Source: Agelas oroides
Taxonomy: Eukaryota > Porifera > Demospongiae > Agelasida > Agelasidae
Direction: 5' to 3'
DNA: 64,000 nucleotides
NCBI GenBank assembly: GCA_949130485.1
Contig: OX422184.1
Span: forward strand, 1,160,943-1,224,942
A model generated the notes under the pieces. It searched no databases and was not told the DNA's origin. It saw only the letters and a program-made list of their open reading frames with translations. Made by a program: the position numbers and the translations under genes. Positions 8,551 through 64,000 of this stretch are shown here, piece by piece (the stretch's first letter is position 1; each line of letters begins with the position of its first letter).

Positions 8551-45082
<36,532 letters not shown>

Positions 45083-54700: not shown

Positions 54701-57700
54701 ATCTACTACACATTCAAGTATTTCTTTTTTATAGAACTGTGAAATCTGTCAAGCATTCCACACTAAAAAGCCTATGTTTGCACTTGTATGGTGGAAATAG
54801 CATCACGTTTGCAGCACGTGGAGTGAAATACACTCCAAATAAAGCATGTTTGGAAGTGAATGTGCTCACGTTTGTGACATTGGATCCTCACCATTTATGT
54901 GTTTGCATTAACCAAAATTGAGAGTGGGAGGATTCTCAGGAGAGAAGACAGCTAAAAGACGTTGCCAAACTAACAATCAGTATGCTTACATCCATATTTG
55001 GTGATCTCTGAAGTCATAATACAACATGCATGGTTTCAAGTGGGAGGAACTGATGTAACAGGTTCACACACATGAGAGAGAGATTGGTGAGTAGGAGGTC
55101 GCAACAAAGACAATATAGATCCAGTTCCTATGTTAGTTGGCACAACAGAGGAAGAGGGAGGGGTGGGTAGGAAATTTAACATAGCTCCAGTTCCTGTGTT
55201 AGTCAGCACAACAGAGGAAGAGGGAGGGGTGGGTAGGAAATTTAACATAGCTCCAGTTCCTGTGTTAGTCAGCACAACAGAGGAAGAGGGAGGGGTGGGT
55301 ATGAAATTAAATATAGATCCAGTTCCTGTGTTAGTCAGCACAACAGAGGAAGAGGGAGGGGTGGGTATGAAATTAAATATAGATCCAGTTCCTATGTTAG
55401 TCAGCACAACAGAGGAAGAGGGAGGGGTGGGTATGAAATAACAACAAAGGCAGTAGATAAAGTTCTCAAGTTTGAAGTTAGCATGACTCAGTTTTGAGTA
55501 CTGACAACTACACATGTAACTGATGAGAAATTAATAAACTAGAGTTAGGGCTGCATGGGGAAATTCATGTCCTACACAACTGCCACTAACAGTGTGACAG
55601 AGAGGCTACACGTACCACTGCATGCTAGCTCCAATCAATTGCAGCTAGCTGTAGAGAAGTAGAGAACCTACCCAGAAATGGTGTCATAGTCTTTTGATAG
55701 GCCTAGCTATATAATAGATGGCTAGCATTCTCGCTGGTATACTTATGTTTATAGCCGCCATTCTCAATAATAGTAGGCAGAAAAATGAACAGCAAAACAT
55801 ATAGCTGTCTGATTAATTAATTAATCGTTAAGCTGGGATTACACATGCACATCATTGTCTATAGGTGTACATTGTCTATAAGTGTACTTACCGCCATATA
55901 AACAACACACGCCAGTGCTTGTGCATATGCGACTGGTAGCCTCCATTGAACAGCAAAACATACTGGAGTCTGATTACTTCATTAAATAAGGTAATAGGAT
56001 AGTTATGCATGCACAAGTGCGGACAGTAGAGTGATAAACCTTGTTTAGGTTCATGCCATGGCCTGTGTGCTGTGACCTGATACTTCACTGGTAAAGCTAT
56101 AGCTATACAACAGTTCAATGCTGCTTGCTCACGCTCGCGCCTCAATGTTCTACATTCGCCTAGTTAAATAAGGTAATAGGATATTTTCATGGGGTCTACC
56201 TCATGGTTGCTATGGCAATTTACGTATACATACCTCTGAGAGTTGCCTGATGGAGGTGCCGGTGAGTTGCTGGCAATGGTTGATGTCTAGCATTTCAAGG
56301 GCTGGACTCTGCTTCAGAAGGAAGGCAAGACCTTGATCTGCCAGCTAGCACATGCACACAGTGTGTATTGAAGAAGATATAACTTGAATCATCGCATGAA
56401 CTACATATTGATTATGTATTTCCAATATCTGTAGTTTTTCAATCCACATGGTCAGATAGACAGACACAGATGGACAGACACAGATAGACAGACACACATA
56501 GACAGACACAGATGGATGATAAAGCAAACTGGATCTATTAACTCTAATGAGGATAAAAGTCACTTTACAAACCTTGTCACAATCTCTGAGAATCACGGTT
56601 TTCAATTTGCTTCCTGTTCTGTGAAAACACTGCATCAAAAAGAACATTAGGCGGCCATATATACATACATACATACCTTAAATACATACATACATACATA
56701 CCTTAAATACATACATACATACATGCATACATACATACATACATACATACAACTACCGTATGTAGATCGGGAAATTAAATGGAAACACTGCATCATTATG
56801 TGCGCATACATACATACATACACACGTATAATAGTTACATTCCCCAGACGGAGCAGCATAAGCCCAAAAGGCAAATGCTGTTCTGTCTGGGGAATGTAAC
56901 ATATTTGTCAGATGTTACCCCTAGCAACCCACTGCCACACCCATTATCACCTCCACCCATTCCACTTTGTGTTATTCAAGCTAAAAAAAATTGGTTGCTA
57001 AGCAACATCCAACAAACATACAATCATATCTACTTATATAATACAAGGGAGTTCAAACTGCACCATAGAATAGTGTGGGGCTTGCACGGGCTAACAATAC
57101 TGACCTGTCCACTAACTCTTCTGTTGCCTGCAACATTCAATATCACTAGAATAGTGTGGGGCTTGCTCGGGCTAACAATACTGACCTGTCCACTAACTCT
57201 TCTGTTGCCTGCAACATTCAATATCACTAGAGTAGTGTGGGGCTTGCTCGGGCTAACAATACTGACCTGTCCACTAACTCTTCTGTTGCCTGCAACATTC
57301 AATATCACTAGAGTAGTGTGGGGCTTGCTCGGGCTAACAATACTGACCTGCCCACTAACTCTTCTGTTGCCTGCAACATTCAATATCACTAGAATAGTGT
57401 GGGGCTTGCTCGGGCTAACAATACTGACCTGTCCACTAACTCTTCTGTTGCCTGCAACATTCAATATCACTAGAGTAGTGTGGGGCTTGCTCGGGCTAAC
57501 AATACTGACCTGTCCACTAACTCTTCTGTTGCCTGCAACATTCAATATCACTAGAATAGTGTGGGGCTTGCACGGGCTAACAATACTGACCTGTCCACTA
57601 ACTCTTCTGTTGCCTGCAACATTCAATATCACTAGAATAGTGTGGGGCTTGCACGGGCTAACAATACTGACCTGTCCACTAATTCTTCTGTTGCCTGCAA

Positions 57701-60700
57701 CATTCAATATCACTAGAATAGTGTGGGGCTTGCTCGGGCTAACAATACTGACCTGTCCACTAACTCTTCTGTTGCCTGCAACATTCAATATCACTAGAGT
57801 AGTGTGGGGCTTGCTCGGGCTAACAATACTGACCTGTCCACTAACTCTTCTGTTGCCTGCAACATTCAATATCACTAGAATAGTGTGGGGCTTGCTCGGG
57901 CTAACAATACTGACCTGTCCACTAACTCTTCTGTTGCCTGCAACATTCAATATCACTAGAGTAGTGTGGGGCTTGCTCGGGCTAACAATACTGACCTGTC
58001 CACTAACTCTTCTGTTGCCTGCAACATTCAATATCACTAGAATAGTGTGGGGCTTGCACGGGCTAACAATACTGACCTGTCCACTAACTCTTCTGTTGCC
58101 TGCAACATTCAATATCACTAGAGTAGTGTGGGGCTTGCTCGGGCTAACAATACTGACCTGTCCACTAACTCTTCTGTTGCCTGCAACATTCAATATCACT
58201 AGAGTAGTGTGGGGCTTGCACGGGCTAACAATACTGACCTGTCCACTAACTCTTCTGTTGCCTGCAACATTCAATATCACTAGAGTAGTGTGGGGCTTGC
58301 ACGGGCTAACAATACTGACCTGTCCACTAACTCTTCTGTTGCCTGCAACATTCAATATCACTAGAGTAGTGTGGGGCTTGCACGGGCTAACAATACTGAC
58401 CTGTCCACTAACTCTTCTGTTGCCTGCAACATTCAATATCACTAGAATAGTGTGGGGCTTGCTCGGGCTAACAATACTGACCTGTCCACTAACTCTTCTG
58501 TTGCCTGCAACATTCAATATCACTAGAATAGTGTGGGGCTTGCACGGGCTAACAATACTGACCTGTCCACTAATTCTTCTGTTGCCTGCAACATTCAAGT
58601 ATTCCAGGTCACTGAAATTATGCAGCGCCCACCACAAGCTGCACAAGAGGGAAAGACCACTTTGTGTACTAGTCAAGTATGTGCTAATGTGTTCATACGT
58701 TATACCATAATCTTTGAGTTTTGTCTTCCCCAAACTCCTTATTGCTGTTTATATTTCCATGGAAACAGAAGTCTACCTTCCTTTTTAGGATGAACTATTG
58801 CACAGCAGGGTTTCATACAGAGTTCCCCCCCCCCCCCCCCCCAGAAATTTGAAAATTATAATGTCATAATTGCCTCAACAGCTACAATAGGGTATACAAC
58901 ACAATAACAAGGTACAGCATAAGTATAGGCATAATAATATAATGCACTATAGCTGAATCTGACGATCCTTGTCTTTAAATGTCCAGAATTTCGTTAAATC
59001 TAGTGGGTGCACCGACACGTGCATGCACCCTTTGCACGCATGTACATTTCCTGCTCCCAGGAAAAATTCAATCCTGCACAAGGTCTTTTAGGTTTGAAAG
59101 TATGCCCACTTGTTTGTGTGCGTATAACTTTGAGTAAATCACCAACTCAACTCTTGTCTCCATCCCCACCTTAACAATACGAAAGAATGTTTACTATACA
59201 TGCATACAAGAGTGTATAAGAACAGGCAACTCGAGTAAGAGTGTGTAACTCCAATAGAAGCCCATAGTTCGGTCAAAATTATTGAACTGTACTAAAAATA
59301 GAACACCTGGTCATGTACTTAGCTACGCAGTACATGTTACTATTTTTAGTACTGGCAAGAAATTCGGACTGGTTTCAAATTGTACGGAGTTACATGCTCT
59401 TACTCAAGCAGCCCATTCTTATGCACTCTTGATGCAATGGAGGGGCAAAATTTGCTGTGGCCGGCCAAGGAGAAGCTACTGACATGTTTTTATGAAAGAT
59501 GCTGTGACAAAGAGTTTTACCATTTTTCTCCCACTTGATGGGAGCCGCTCATCTTTAGCCACTTCATCTGGCTGCACCGCTGAGTGAGAAGCTTGAAGGA
59601 GGTCTGTGTCACTGATACCCCAGACAGATCCAGCTTGACAAGTTTGGGGCAGTACATGCCTAAGAGGGAGAGAATGAAAATCACAGAAAGTTCATCCCAG
59701 CTCTCTCACAGACTTGCACACAAACATCACGTCTCCAGCCGGATATCCCCACCCAGCTTTTGGCATTTTTACATGCTGCAAGCAACAAAAGACTGGATGG
59801 GAGCCTGAGAAAAAAGGCTGGTAATTAAGTTGCACGTGGCAACTGTGGCTGGTATAGTCATGTGGATATCTAAGGAAAAATAAAGGCATTAAATCTCTGG
59901 ATCTATATACATGTAGATGCTCTCATTAATTACGTTGTCATGGTAAGGTCATGATAGTTTCGTGAGGTATCAGGATGGTGTTTTGAAAGTCTCACAATGG
60001 CTATGCTATTAATGTCGAGTACCATAGATCAGGAAAATTTCGCTGTTAAAAAATTTTTTCAGATCAAGCGAAAATTTAACACCACAAAAATTTTTCGTGC
60101 GAATTATTTTAATGTGAAAATTTCCCAATCTACGGTATGTGATAATTTGTGCCCAAACCTTCTCATGTCTTAGTACTGCAAGTGACAAAACCAGACGGTA
60201 GGCATGGGAACAAGACTACAAGCAATAATACATATATGTTCCATCCACACAATTTACGTACCAATAAGGTCCAGGGCATAGTCTGTAAGTAAGTGGGGAG
60301 AGCCACACAGGTCCAAGCTCTGCAACTGTCTACATCCCTTCTTCAGCACAGAGTGCAGGATATTGTCTGTCAGACCTATATACACAAGACACACAGACAT
60401 TGGACTCCATTGTCATGTGCCTAACAGACCAGTCTGTTTGTAAAGTGTGTCTCTAAGTGTTGTATTTGCCCGAAGAACTAAAGCCCCATTTACACTTAAA
60501 TGGGGCTTTCAAATTGGTTTACTTTTAAACCGATTTGGCCAAACCACATCATTATGCGGTTTACAGAAAGCGGTTTCTAAAGTGCATTAGGGGGGGGGGG
60601 GTTACACAGCTGCCCTAAACTGATTTGAAACTTAAACCGCTATTGTAAACGGGCTTAAGACCCTTCATTGCAAAAGTACGATGAAGTTTTGTGCACTCGG

Positions 60701-63700
60701 AGATTATTCACTCACGAACACCTTCGTATAATATACCTGTACAATCTTTAGCCCGAGAGACTGGTTGTCCGAGGTCTAGACTACTAGAAACTCATAGCCT
60801 AAATACAATACGTACTTCCATATTTTCCTCTGAAGGAAGAAAAGACATTCCTGAAGCTCAGAGTCTTGGTTGACTTCCACAGCAGTCCAGCAACCCGGTA
60901 CCACTTCCTGCACACTGTATAGAGACACAACAGTGCTCTTGCTAAGGTGCACAGTGATATTCTCAGTGTTCAGCTCATCGTATCGCTTCTCTCTATGTTC
61001 ATTCAGTTCATTTCAAGTACCTCTTTCAATCTTGACTACGTCTTTCAGCCCAAGGTAGGAGAATATGTGCATCAGAATGTCGTCATTCAGTTCTGGCAGA
61101 CTGGAATGGGAATGGAAATATACACACATAAGGCCAAGTAAAATAGTTTCTCATCAATTTACAAGTCCAGATTAGGCACGCAGAGAGGAATGGGAATGGA
61201 AATATACACACATAAGGCCAAGTAAAATAAATTATTAGTTTCTCATCAACTTACAAGTCCAGATTAGGCACGCAGAGAGGAATATTAATTTTATTTTTAT
61301 GTTCAATCAGTTGATTATGTGATCCTGGGGAGATTGCCCGTTGTACGCCACAACAGAATCTGTTTGATATTGGTCTGGCAAAGTGGTTCCCTGATTGAGC
61401 ACACCTCGTAGTAATATAGCTGGCTAGTTACGTATTTGTTTATAAACATGTAGTTGTAAATAAAACGTTGTGTATGCCGGCTGAAGAGTGTACGCAAGGG
61501 GATGAGAAACTAACAATTTATTTTACTTGGCCTAATAACTATGCAAGTCAAACTGCACTCTCAGAATGCTCAAAGAACCTACAGTGATCTAGCTAGTGTG
61601 TAGGCAACAGTTTTTCGAGTTGATCACTGTACTAGCCTCATTCCCAGGCCCCTCCCAGATTTTATCTTGCAGCTGTGGAGAAAAATCGGGGAGGGGCCTG
61701 GGAACGAGGCTATCACTGTACAGCTGTAGAACTAACTGTGAAACTTTGTTACAACACAACATAAAAAGTCAACAAGGGGAACTAAGGAATCAATGACAGT
61801 CAGTCACACCTACCCTAGCCTCAAACCCAGGCTTTCAATTCCGGATCCTTGTCTTGCAGCTTTGACAAAACCCGGAACGGAAAGTGTGGGTTTGAGGTCT
61901 CATTTACCCTTTGTCCTTGTCATTCAAGTCAGTGGCTTGCAGTACTCCTGTGATTGTCTGAACATCTTTGCTAGCTGCACTTCTTGAAACATCTTCAAAC
62001 TGCTCATCAACTTTCCACTCGTCTTGCTCCTCCTCCCTGTCTGTAGTTCCAGCTGCCTGCTGCAAGTTTCTTAGAGCTCTTAGCCTCTTTGCAGTCTGGG
62101 GTCGTGACACACGCATCAATCTGCATCAGGAAATATGATCATTAGCCCTTGTTATGATCATAAGTCTATGCATTTGTGAACGAGTGCAGTAAATGGTACA
62201 GTCCATCAAGGCACGCCCATAGTAAAAAGGAAGTGTCATTATATATGTCCCACTGCAAGAACATGCTTAGTGTTTTAGTCAATAGCCTTGTACACAGGCT
62301 CCTCCCCTGCAGGAGCCTGTGTACAAGGCTATCAGCCAATACACTTGCATGAAATGAAGAACGCATGTGCGAAACATGTTCCTTCAATGGGGGACCCCTA
62401 TACCACAGCCCAAGTGTCACCTTCCATCCAAGATCAGCTCTTGTTCTGAGGCATTGAGAGCCAACTCTGCAGAATCTACACTTTGGAAGGTCACAAATCC
62501 TATGCTGTGTGTGTGTGTGCATTCATGTGTGTATACAAATCAATGAACCACATCTCCTAGAAAAAAGGCAGGCCTAGATGTTACACAGAGTCACCCACTG
62601 TACATGACGTGTTTCTGCAAATACCGGCCTCATCATGCATGTGTGCAGGTGTGCATGTGTGCAGGTGTGCAGGTGTGCATGTGTGTGCATATGCATGTAT
62701 GCATATATGTGTGCAGTATGTGTGTATACATCCGTGTGTGTGTATGTGTGTGTGCGTGCACATGCATGAACATGTGCGCATGTGACATCATCAAATACAT
62801 GACATGACGTGTTTCTGCCAATACTGGCCTCATCATGCATGTGTGCAGGTGTGCATGTATGCATATATGTGTGCAGTATGTGTGTATACATCCGTGTGTG
62901 TGTATGTGTGTGTGTGCATGAACATGTGCACGTGACATAATCAATAGGGTAATATAATTAAGGCTGACTCCTGGCCCTTTCGATATACTAATGTGGTTGT
63001 CTTCAGTCTTGCATACATGCATGCAAGACTGAAGACAACCACATATAGCCATGCAGTACATTAGCCTTGTTCCCAGACCTTCAGTACGGTACACGCACTG
63101 GGTCTTGCTGAGGGTCTGGGAACGAGGCTAGCAGTACATACACTGCTACAGCTCACCCTCGAGACCATCCCTTCATGTGGTCCTTCACCACCTGACAATA
63201 AGCAACTGACCCAAACTCAGAGAAAAATTCAGCTAGCTCTCTCTCCTTCACCTGGAGTGGGATGTATAAACTTTATTGTTAAGATGAAAATGGCATTATA
63301 ACAAGCTCCTTTTCGCTTTCCTCTAATTTGCCATGGTTTACAAATTTTTGGTATAGTACAGAGGTAAGGCCAGGCAAAGTAGATATATTATTTCGCATCA
63401 GCGCCTGCTTCATCTGAGACCCGCTTCCTCAACTGTCGTTATCTCCTTCCAAACTATGTCACACACACTTTCAATGGTTGTAGCATGGTAGATTTGCCGT
63501 AGATTTGTATAGAAACAAATAATGATTAAATGGCCACCTGCTCACCTGACACAAATCGAGTAAGTGGCTGTTGCGAAACAAGACTGAAATCGACTTTTGC
63601 CTGGCCTAAAAATACACAAGTCAGTAGTATGACTTAGAATATGGGCAAAACACTAGTGCTCAAAATAATCGGTCTTATTTCTATACTTGAAATGTTGTAA

Positions 63701-63927
63701 ACTTAATATGGTACTAGAATATTGCTACCACATGGTTGGATTATTTTCTGACGTCACAGTAGGTGTGGCAGACCACACGTGGTGAGATGAAGAACTGAAA
63801 TGCTACCTTTCATTTTACGGTTCCTGCATACTAGAACTGCCACATAAAGCGCACTTACTCTATAGCTTATGTTTCCGACAAATATTTTGCAGGGGTTGGG
63901 TCCGCCCTTCTGCTGTCTTTTCGCCAT
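45724..63927 (-). CDS. RRM / F-box / leucine-rich repeat protein (FBXL-like, 652 aa)
   Basis: Exons (minus): 63859-63927, 63157-63251, 62421-62504, 61908-62120, 61021-61100, 60816-60914, 60262-60375, 59521-59659, 58563-58611, 56573-56629, 56234-56344, 49437-49485, 49276-49319, 49113-49192, 48592-48694, 48074-48161, 47350-47502, 46448-46567, 45724-45935. All splice sites are GT-AG and all phases agree, giving one frame from ATG 63927 to TGA 45726-45724. An RRM fills about residues 14-95: RNP2 KIFVGNI, helix ERELAEFFSEFGSV, RNP1 GIGFVTF, last strand GRLMRVSRP. After a charged linker comes an F-box at about 155-195 (LPELNDDILMHIFSYLGLKD, then VCRKWYRVAGLLWKS). Cysteine-type LRRs follow to about residue 560 (e.g. 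CRQLQSLDLCGSPHLLTDYA; ALEMLDINHCQQLTGTSI; CEACYNISDAGLQCL). The tail is acidic and ends EEWGWS. An F-box with LRRs normally recruits substrates to an SCF ubiquitin ligase; the RRM suggests an RNA-linked target (inference). Optional 60-bp exon at 63546-63605. Confidence 0.88.
46093..46206. mobile_element. 114-bp hairpin element with perfect 9-bp duplication
   Basis: TAGCCTTGTTCCCAGGCTTT pairs with its complement ending GGGAACAAGGCTA. The flanks ACCAGGGAC at 46084-46092 and 46207-46215 are identical. In the last intron of the F-box gene. Confidence 0.92.
46880..47218. repeat. TGATATCACAGAC minisatellite, about 19 copies
   Basis: Units of 16-17 bp (TGATATCACAGACGGGC / TGATATCACAGACAGC / GATGAC) with GATATC at the centre of each, in the intron between 46567 and 47350. 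Confidence 0.93.
47583..47965. mobile_element. TIR element, TACCGTATAGCCGG ends
   Basis: TACCGTATAGCCGGAA at the left is complementary to TTTCCGGCTATACGGTA at the right. The interior has a direct echo of the ends (AATTTGGTGG / CCAAATTTAAA). It shares the outer TACCGTATA with the MITEs at 24772 and 30995. Located in an intron of the F-box gene. Confidence 0.78.
48740..48797. mobile_element. 58-bp CAAGAGTGCAT hairpin element
   Basis: CAAGAGTGCATGATGAC pairs with GTCATCATGCACTCTTG (one bulge). The flanks AGTTTAT / AGTTTAA agree at 6 of 7 bases. Same family as 40405-40952. Confidence 0.72.
50260..54458 (-). CDS. Secreted subtilisin-like (S8) protease with CUB and fibrinogen-like domains, 846 aa
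   Basis: Four exons with matching phases: 54186-54458, 52980-53913, 51785-52147 and 50260-51230. The signal peptide is MGLAAFICCILVAVALLGAT. An I9-type propeptide occupies about residues 38-92 (GCYIVVLKQAT and later VAKAFTVKLS). The S8 domain of proteinase K type spans about 115-400 with the catalytic triad Asp148 (VLDTGVN), His188 (GHGTHVA) and Ser343 (GTSMATP), plus the oxyanion Asn278 (AAGND). A CUB domain at about 404-523 starts SCGGNFSA and has the IQSPNYPSNY motif and paired cysteines. The C-terminal ~280 residues begin CREIATEGFGRESDYYWV and include KVFCDL and GWTRV, like the first half of a fibrinogen domain. They continue into a Cys-rich region (PLWDGKGC, CCSFNTPPW) that I associate with sponge and cnidarian secreted proteins. 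Probable extracellular or vacuolar protease. It lies within an intron of the F-box gene, same strand. Confidence 0.9.
54459..56233. other. 5' flank of the subtilase gene within the F-box gene intron
   Basis: The subtilase promoter should lie just right of 54458. The region also holds a 66-bp minisatellite (55114-55440) and AT-rich DNA. A CTCACGCTCGCGCC repeat end occurs near 56130. No exon was recognised. Confidence 0.5.
55114..55440. repeat. 66-bp minisatellite, 5 copies
   Basis: The unit contains GTTAGTCAGCACAACAGAGG and AAGAGGGAGGGGTGGGTAGG and ends ATAGCTCCAGTTCCTGT. It is nearly identical between copies, and the 66-bp length keeps frames open (artefact ORFs on both strands). Confidence 0.93.
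57064..58602. repeat. 19 x 81-bp array copying an LRR exon half plus its splice donor
   Basis: The array abuts the F-box gene's LRR exon 58563-58611. On the minus strand each unit holds TTGAATGTTGCAGGCAACAG, AAGAGTTAGTGGACAG and then GTCAGTATTGTTAGCCC, i.e. the 3' part of that exon, its donor (CAG|GTCAGT) and the first part of the intron. Unit spacing is exactly 81 bp (e.g. 57145, 57226 ... 58522), with only a few variable positions (A/G, ctCg/caCg). Since 81 is 27 codons the frame stays open on both strands for over 500 codons. Confidence 0.93.
58808..59060. repeat. Dispersed repeat, inverted relative to 7735-7960
   Basis: Starts GTTTCATACAGAGTTCCCCC, contains GAAATTTGAAAATTATAATG and CATAATTGCCTCAACAGCTA, and ends in the GTGCATGCACCCTTTGCACG segment. 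Located in an intron of the F-box gene. Confidence 0.75.
59207..59431. mobile_element. TIR element of the CAAGAGTGTATAAGAACAGG family
   Basis: CAAGAGTGTATAAGAACAGG and GAGTAAGAGTGTGTAACTCC at the left are inverted at the right (TTACATGCTCTTACTC...TTATGCACTCTTG). The flanks ATGCATA / ATGCAAT share ATGCA. The element ends 90 bp from an F-box gene exon (59521-59659). Confidence 0.75.
61633..61712. mobile_element. 80-bp hairpin element with perfect 9-bp duplication
   Basis: TAGCCTCATTCCCAGGCCCC pairs with GGGGCCTGGGAACGAGGCTA. The flanks TCACTGTAC at 61624-61632 and 61713-61721 are identical. Confidence 0.93.
61816..61900. mobile_element. Hairpin element inserted at a splice donor of the F-box gene
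   Basis: TAGCCTCAAACCCAGGCTTT pairs with GGAAAGTGTGGGTTTGAGGTC. The flanks CACCTACCC (61807-61815) and CATTTACCC (61901-61909) agree at 7 of 9 bases (two transitions). The right flank contains the donor GG|GTAAAT of the exon 61908-62120 (minus); the left flank carries a second donor-like GG|GTAGGT. Confidence 0.78.
62283..62331. mobile_element. 49-bp hairpin element
   Basis: TAGCCTTGTACACAGGCTCC pairs with GGAGCCTGTGTACAAGGCTA, a near-perfect hairpin. The flank comparison is ambiguous by one base (TTAGTCAAT / TCAGCCAAT). Confidence 0.75.
62603..62935. repeat. Direct repeat with TG-rich interior
   Basis: GACGTGTTTCTGCAAATACC, followed by GGCCTCATCATGCATGTGTG and a TGTGTGCAG-rich stretch, occurs at 62603-62790 and again, shortened, at 62805-62935. 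In the F-box gene intron between 62504 and 63157. Confidence 0.85.
62991..63044. repeat. Perfect 54-bp palindrome
   Basis: ATGTGGTTGTCTTCAGTCTT(GCAT) is followed by a 6-bp loop and the exact complement. It lies 18 bp from the hairpin element at 63062 and does not share its termini, so it is a different hairpin. Confidence 0.88.
63062..63130. mobile_element. 69-bp hairpin element with perfect 9-bp duplication
   Basis: TAGCCTTGTTCCCAGACC pairs with GGTCTGGGAACGAGGCTA around CTTCAGTACGGTACACGCAC. The flanks GCAGTACAT at 63053-63061 and 63131-63139 are identical. It ends 26 bp from the exon 63157-63251 of the F-box gene. Confidence 0.93.
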
Positions 63928-64000
63928 TTAGCACTGCACCTCGTGAGGTCAAAGTTTACCAGCAACCTCGTCGCACGCGCGCGCGCATCGCCACGCCCAC

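Follow-up and report, generated by a model that had tools for sequence, protein, structure and literature searches.

Why should one exon of a gene be followed by eighteen further copies of its own 5′ splice site, and does such a row serve the protein, its splicing, or neither? The question is raised by a gene of the sponge Agelas oroides located in the window analysed here, i.e., the whole stretch of 64,000 nucleotides, which is part of a 26-Mb contig in the one assembly used (genome 259 Mb). Based on splice signals and homology rather than transcripts, we modelled this gene on the minus strand from 63927 to at least 56234, with 11 exons in consistent splice phases (Table 1). The spliced 11-exon product recovers the Pfam families RRM_1 (2.8e-16), F-box-like (5.1e-11) and LRR_4 (3.8e-07), and, when the array is left out, a continuous LRR protein is read across the junction of exons 9 and 10. 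The splice from 58563 to 56629 described in an earlier note on this DNA is the one by which these two exons are joined in frame in our model; the limits which that note gave for exon 9 (58563-58611) are corrected by the model to those of a 76-bp exon.

Table 1. Parts of the RRM/F-box/LRR gene and of the array at the end of its ninth exon (positions are those of the window; a slash marks the exon/intron boundary)
Feature	Position	Strand	Basis
Exons 1-8: RRM, F-box and first LRRs	59521..63927	-	gene model
Exon 9, 76 bp; its 3′ part is array unit 0	58563..58638	-	splice-phase-consistent gene model
Authentic 5′ splice site, GTCAGT after CAG; highest consensus match among the gene's 11 donors	58557..58562	-	
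81-bp tandem array, 18.9 copies	57066..58598	-	TRF, 98% matches
Extra CAG/GTCAGT copies, n = 18, 81-bp spacing, all in phase 0	57099..58481	-	
Exon 10 (CFHRTGSKLKTVILRDCDK), acceptor partner assumed for all donors	56573..56629	-	gene model
Exon 11 (LRR), last exon found	56234..56344	-	gene model

The occurrence of an RRM and an F-box in a single gene model (63927-60816) is accompanied by consistent phases, and the exons of both domains are kept in a duplicate of the gene; such a pairing is not known among human F-box proteins. The duplicate is in tandem, about 17 kb away, and is truncated at its 3′ end: positions 59320-64000 of the window correspond to C2:1237563-1241957, with 84-98% DNA identity in the main pieces, and the copy ends in intron 8, upstream of the array-bearing LRR exon. 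A tblastn search with exons 9-11 in the 20 kb beside the window yielded nothing convincing. Since the partial copy stops before exon 9, it supplies no array-free relative to prove the ancestral state; dating the array by means of this copy was dropped on the same ground.

The array itself is composed of units that each hold about 36 bp of the exon 9 tail, the donor, and the rest of about 45 bp of intron and junction. A single base separates the final 36 bp of exon 9 from the most frequent unit, and the 18 complete units show variation in only 4 columns. The donors, 19 with the authentic one included, are placed exactly 81 bp apart, with the first G of the first at 58562 and that of the last at 57104. 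Thus, tandem, near-identical units situated between model exons 9 and 10 constitute an intronic minisatellite, in which, as in the human gene IFI6, a copied donor is found in every unit (19/19 with CAG/GTCAGT). The amplified donor agrees with the consensus at 8 of 9 positions, as against 5-7 of 9 in the gene's other ten donors. The 81-bp array with in-frame CAG/GTCAGT donors had been described in the earlier note and is borne out by TRF and by our dissection of the unit; the 19 copies reported there as lying beside the exon are indeed 19 in total, but this count takes in the authentic exon end, leaving 18 extra. In a genome search that passes over very common words, a 251-bp piece of the array matched a single locus. 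The order of unit types gave no sign of a higher-order structure: the longest repeated block was 3, a value reached in 1928 of 5000 shuffles. The unit junction, TCTA/GTGATA/TTGAATG, may have come from the exon's own TCAGTGA via an 8-bp loss, as one alignment allows.

With 81 bp making 27 codons, the sense frame passes through the array without a stop, just as the earlier note had read it in the frame of the exon. When joined to exons 10 and 11, all 19 donor choices are in frame and stop-free through to exon 11, with products of 379 to 865 residues; the alternative donors therefore keep the frame, as is the case in IFI6. Full retention of the array meets a stop at codon 834 (i.e., after 833 residues), just past the array and before exon 10. 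The open frame is in itself unremarkable, because openness by chance is high and the array can be read without a stop in one antisense frame as well (a 643-aa ORF, 56779-58710 on the plus strand). When the exon tail and donor are held fixed and the rest of an 81-bp unit is filled at random from the genome, the native frame is free of stops in 11185 of 20000 trials; letting the unit length vary lowers this to 3759 of 20000 (about 0.19), and units excised about each of the gene's 11 donors give 2728 of 30683. Hence, the open frame was rejected as evidence for coding. Furthermore, of the four variable columns, read in the sense frame, three alter the amino acid and one is synonymous, so that purifying selection on the translation of the array is not visible.

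We consider it probable that the array is a young intronic minisatellite, born of a duplication over the exon/intron boundary, with splicing mostly at the first donor and the downstream donors as possible in-frame alternatives. The contents of the unit, the exact spacing, the presence of only 4 variable columns and the 19 in-phase donors all argue for this reading. A tandem duplication over the boundary of exon 9 and intron 9 would have copied the exon tail of about 36 bp together with its 5′ splice site and the beginning of the intron, and unequal exchange or slippage would then have expanded the array to 19 units. As a rule, exon definition favours the donor closest to the exon when several are equal; accordingly, most transcripts should be normal, with the first donor, which adjoins the exon, probably used in most of them and the rest of the array leaving with the intron. 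Use of a donor further downstream would only add n × 27 residues, without a frameshift, and an array of stop-free 81-bp units with no other consequence would be tolerated; this tolerance is the likely reason for its persistence.

The array can be placed as a large example of something already known, namely the exon-end donor minisatellites. The human gene IFI6 (6-16, G1P3) is said to have been described by Turri et al. in 1995 as holding a minisatellite with multiple splice donors. In IFI6 and in the F-box gene alike, a minisatellite at the end of an exon supplies several donors; the genes are unrelated, and, unlike the IFI6 unit, which has 12 bp and adds 4 residues, that of the F-box gene has 81 bp and would add 27 residues. 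Moreover, the use of downstream units with the production of isoforms is reported for IFI6 in the available part of PMC4526556 (also cited in the available part of PMC2572611), whereas the F-box array is known from genomic sequence alone. The portion of PMC2812944 at hand gives 27 cases of a human intron modified by tandem repeats; of the 10 that fall in coding sequence, 9 are in frame (Table 2 therein). In these segmentally duplicated human genes, too, minisatellites expanded over exon/intron boundaries, altering splicing mostly in frame; however, according to the same portion, those repeats vary between paralogues, are supported by transcripts and average 4 × 30 bp, as against a 19 × 81 bp array seen here in sequence only. 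Likewise, in one published case, as far as the accessible account goes, a tandem duplication over a splice boundary carried the splice signals along; there, a single duplication made a new intron, whereas the F-box array multiplies the donor alone and implies no new intron. The VNTR6-1 of TERT intron 6 is comparable in being an intronic minisatellite, with the splicing effect being that of TERT, where the excerpted text of PMC11830802 attributes it to G-quadruplexes and not to copied donors. A few searches of the open-access literature, with no taxon named, returned no report of the F-box array locus in the parts of the texts that they covered. Rows of identical donors such as these amount to a natural experiment on the choice of the 5′ splice site by the spliceosome, in which strength and context are equal and position alone differs. 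If downstream donors were used, the number of units would directly set the length of the protein.

We also uncovered a second such array in the same genome. In the UPF1 orthologue (C11:330475-331399), eight GTGAGT donors follow each other in exactly 54-bp steps at the end of an exon reading NGSMPQRLYQ/GTGAGT. The 54-bp unit is in frame and encodes 18 residues (VSGLVTRLNGSMPQRLYQ), and its variable columns are all synonymous (3/3; the chance of 3/3 synonymous transitions is P about 0.04); the antisense frames of this array are closed (0/3 open). This array of eight donors, with its in-frame unit and wholly synonymous variable columns, is new here. Splicing at its first donor, over a 675-bp intron, gives together with the neighbouring exons 117 residues that align gap-free to human UPF1 (E 3.3e-59), from which it follows that the first donor yields the conserved protein. 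In a genome search, the three UPF1 exons gave one strong match each, along with weaker helicase relatives elsewhere. If the array is retained, the reading frame meets a stop codon within the intron. UPF1 drives nonsense-mediated decay, which gives the case an added significance: the driver of this decay would itself meet an intronic stop upon retention of its own array. Given this second array, such rows seem to be an accident that recurs in a genome rich in minisatellites rather than a device private to the LRR gene.

Against the young-minisatellite reading stands the fact that the units of both arrays are open and multiples of three, for which the chance in UPF1 is 4451 of 20000 (about 0.22) and in the F-box gene about 0.19, together with the synonymous nature of all the UPF1 columns. 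When the transitions of the two arrays are pooled, with the nonsynonymous F-box transversion left out, 4 of 6 are synonymous (P 0.12). The F-box array had been given as open, and that of UPF1 was opened after its unit, divisible by 3, looked open; as both were picked for openness, the frame-selection figures overstate the case. Hence, selection keeping the frame in exon-end donor arrays is a lead and not a result. Were the fully synonymous pattern to be found in more cases, downstream donors would have to be used.

Of the alternatives, the one that survives best holds that the downstream donors are used often enough to produce several isoforms with one, two or more extra 27-residue units, so that unit number acts as a dial for protein length, and that selection keeps both the length and the frame of the unit. 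It draws on the 19 in-frame donor choices and on the second in-frame array in UPF1 with its synonymous columns, as well as on two precedents in the available parts of their sources, i.e., the use of downstream repeat units as donors in IFI6 transcripts (PMC4526556) and the in-frame majority of the human coding-sequence cases (PMC2812944). With a single synonymous column out of four in the F-box array, the pooled transitions as given above, frame evidence biased by the way in which UPF1 was chosen, and only two certain cases, we regard this alternative as unlikely. Its extension, according to which exon-tail minisatellites form a class kept in frame and open by selection with their downstream donors in use, and of which UPF1 (18 residues, 8 donors) and the F-box gene (27 residues, 19 donors) would be members, appears distinctly unlikely. 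If it were true, constrained genes like UPF1 would carry a variable-number, splice-selected peptide insert.

Another alternative is that a row of U1-binding sites lowers or delays the splicing of intron 9, or else yields a poison cassette, thereby tuning the level of the mRNA. The decoy 5′ splice sites proposed in the earlier note stand as anatomy, in that the 19 donors are equivalent, in phase and the gene's best match to the consensus. Each unit holds an acceptor-like CTAG, from which exons of 41 nt starting with TGA would arise; in the first unit, where this acceptor is at 58522, the resulting 41-nt cassette brings an immediate stop at codon 324. An intronic VNTR also alters the splicing of TERT, as per the excerpt of PMC11830802. 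However, the distance from a donor to the next cassette acceptor leaves an intron of only 40 nt, and as a regulatory device we find the row improbable.

The latent LRR solenoid envisaged in the earlier note, by which a new solenoid would have been born with the array retained as coding sequence and folding as LRRs, is most improbable, and was rejected on account of a partial LRR_6 match, the strands predicted by AlphaFold2, the antisense control and the Foldseek result. The features inviting this idea are the open sense frame, a 27-residue unit with the spacing LxxLxVxxNxxV and an LRR_6 score of 34.9 bits, summed over the repeats of the array translation. The best LRR_6 stretch, however, covers only profile positions 3-14 of 24 (12/24) and not a whole repeat, and it lies in the half of the unit derived from the exon. 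The same translation scores 38.1 bits with an unrelated bacterial secretin family, and the antisense translation exceeds the cut-off of an unrelated DUF family with 31.8 bits; summed repeat scores are thus misleading here. The structure prediction that the earlier note had called for, run with AlphaFold2 on the single sequence of exon 9 and eight-odd units (pLDDT 88.5), gave two strands per unit and no helix, i.e., no LRR fold, although for perfect repeats a prediction from one sequence carries little weight. We read the model as a beta-solenoid, a prediction that is unreliable for perfect repeats; its antisense control also came out as an all-strand repeat (pLDDT 81.3), and the available part of PMC11795689 reports that AF2 predicts beta-solenoids with confidence when a random sequence is perfectly repeated. 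Foldseek returned 57 PDB matches to the sense model at E<=10 and none of them (0/57) at E<=0.001. Beta-solenoids, a curli subunit among them, head the matches, and one among the best 50 of 57 comes from a complex containing an LRR inhibitor (8ikw_B, E 4.6, probability 0.01). Retention would also run into the stop before exon 10. Nothing here shows the array making a new protein fold.

The young-minisatellite reading is further favoured by the density of minisatellites in this genome. A total of 284 kb, comprising 20 sampled stretches of 10 kb, the window and the 20 kb beside it, contains 28 minisatellites at the chosen cut-offs; in a manual count of those with a period divisible by 3, the F-box array included, one or more frames are open in 7 of 10. 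The array at 14524-15514, with about 90 copies of an 11-bp unit and all three plus-strand frames open, is a further example of how common open frames are in arrays here. Genome-wide, three AG/GTRAGT-like octamers in a row were compared with the reversed pattern, giving 42 v 29, 124 v 126 and 228 v 192, figures that count matches and not arrays; a clear donor enrichment in arrays was not found with these patterns, which is likewise in keeping with the young-minisatellite reading. The UPF1 array is one of three inspected among the arrays listed, others of which lie on C1, C3, C4, C5, C6, C9, C13 and C14, with further ones on C2 and C11. Two further candidates were rejected by eye as exon-end arrays: one on C8 (C8:9552560, 48 bp), with no exon in 301 bases and outer copies devoid of AGGT, and one on C2 (C2:20896820, 39 bp), which in 271 bases does not lie at an exon end in the orientation of the donor. 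The arrays on C11, C8 and C2 were chosen for open units divisible by 3, and consequently cannot test for a frame bias.

Other repeats are found elsewhere in the window. A 66-bp array of 4.9 copies (55115-55439) lies downstream of exon 11 of the RRM/F-box/LRR gene; its units, read on the strand of the gene, display a pyrimidine-rich stretch followed by mostly CTGACTAACAYAG/G, thereby resembling 3′ splice sites in series, and the last of them runs into an open frame of 37 codons. Four similar long open frames (20865-24328, 29184-30542 and 35354-36778) constitute a local gene family, both scanned members of which match 2OG-FeII_Oxy_3, and minisatellites at 22274, 29044 and 35119 are situated near some of these frames.
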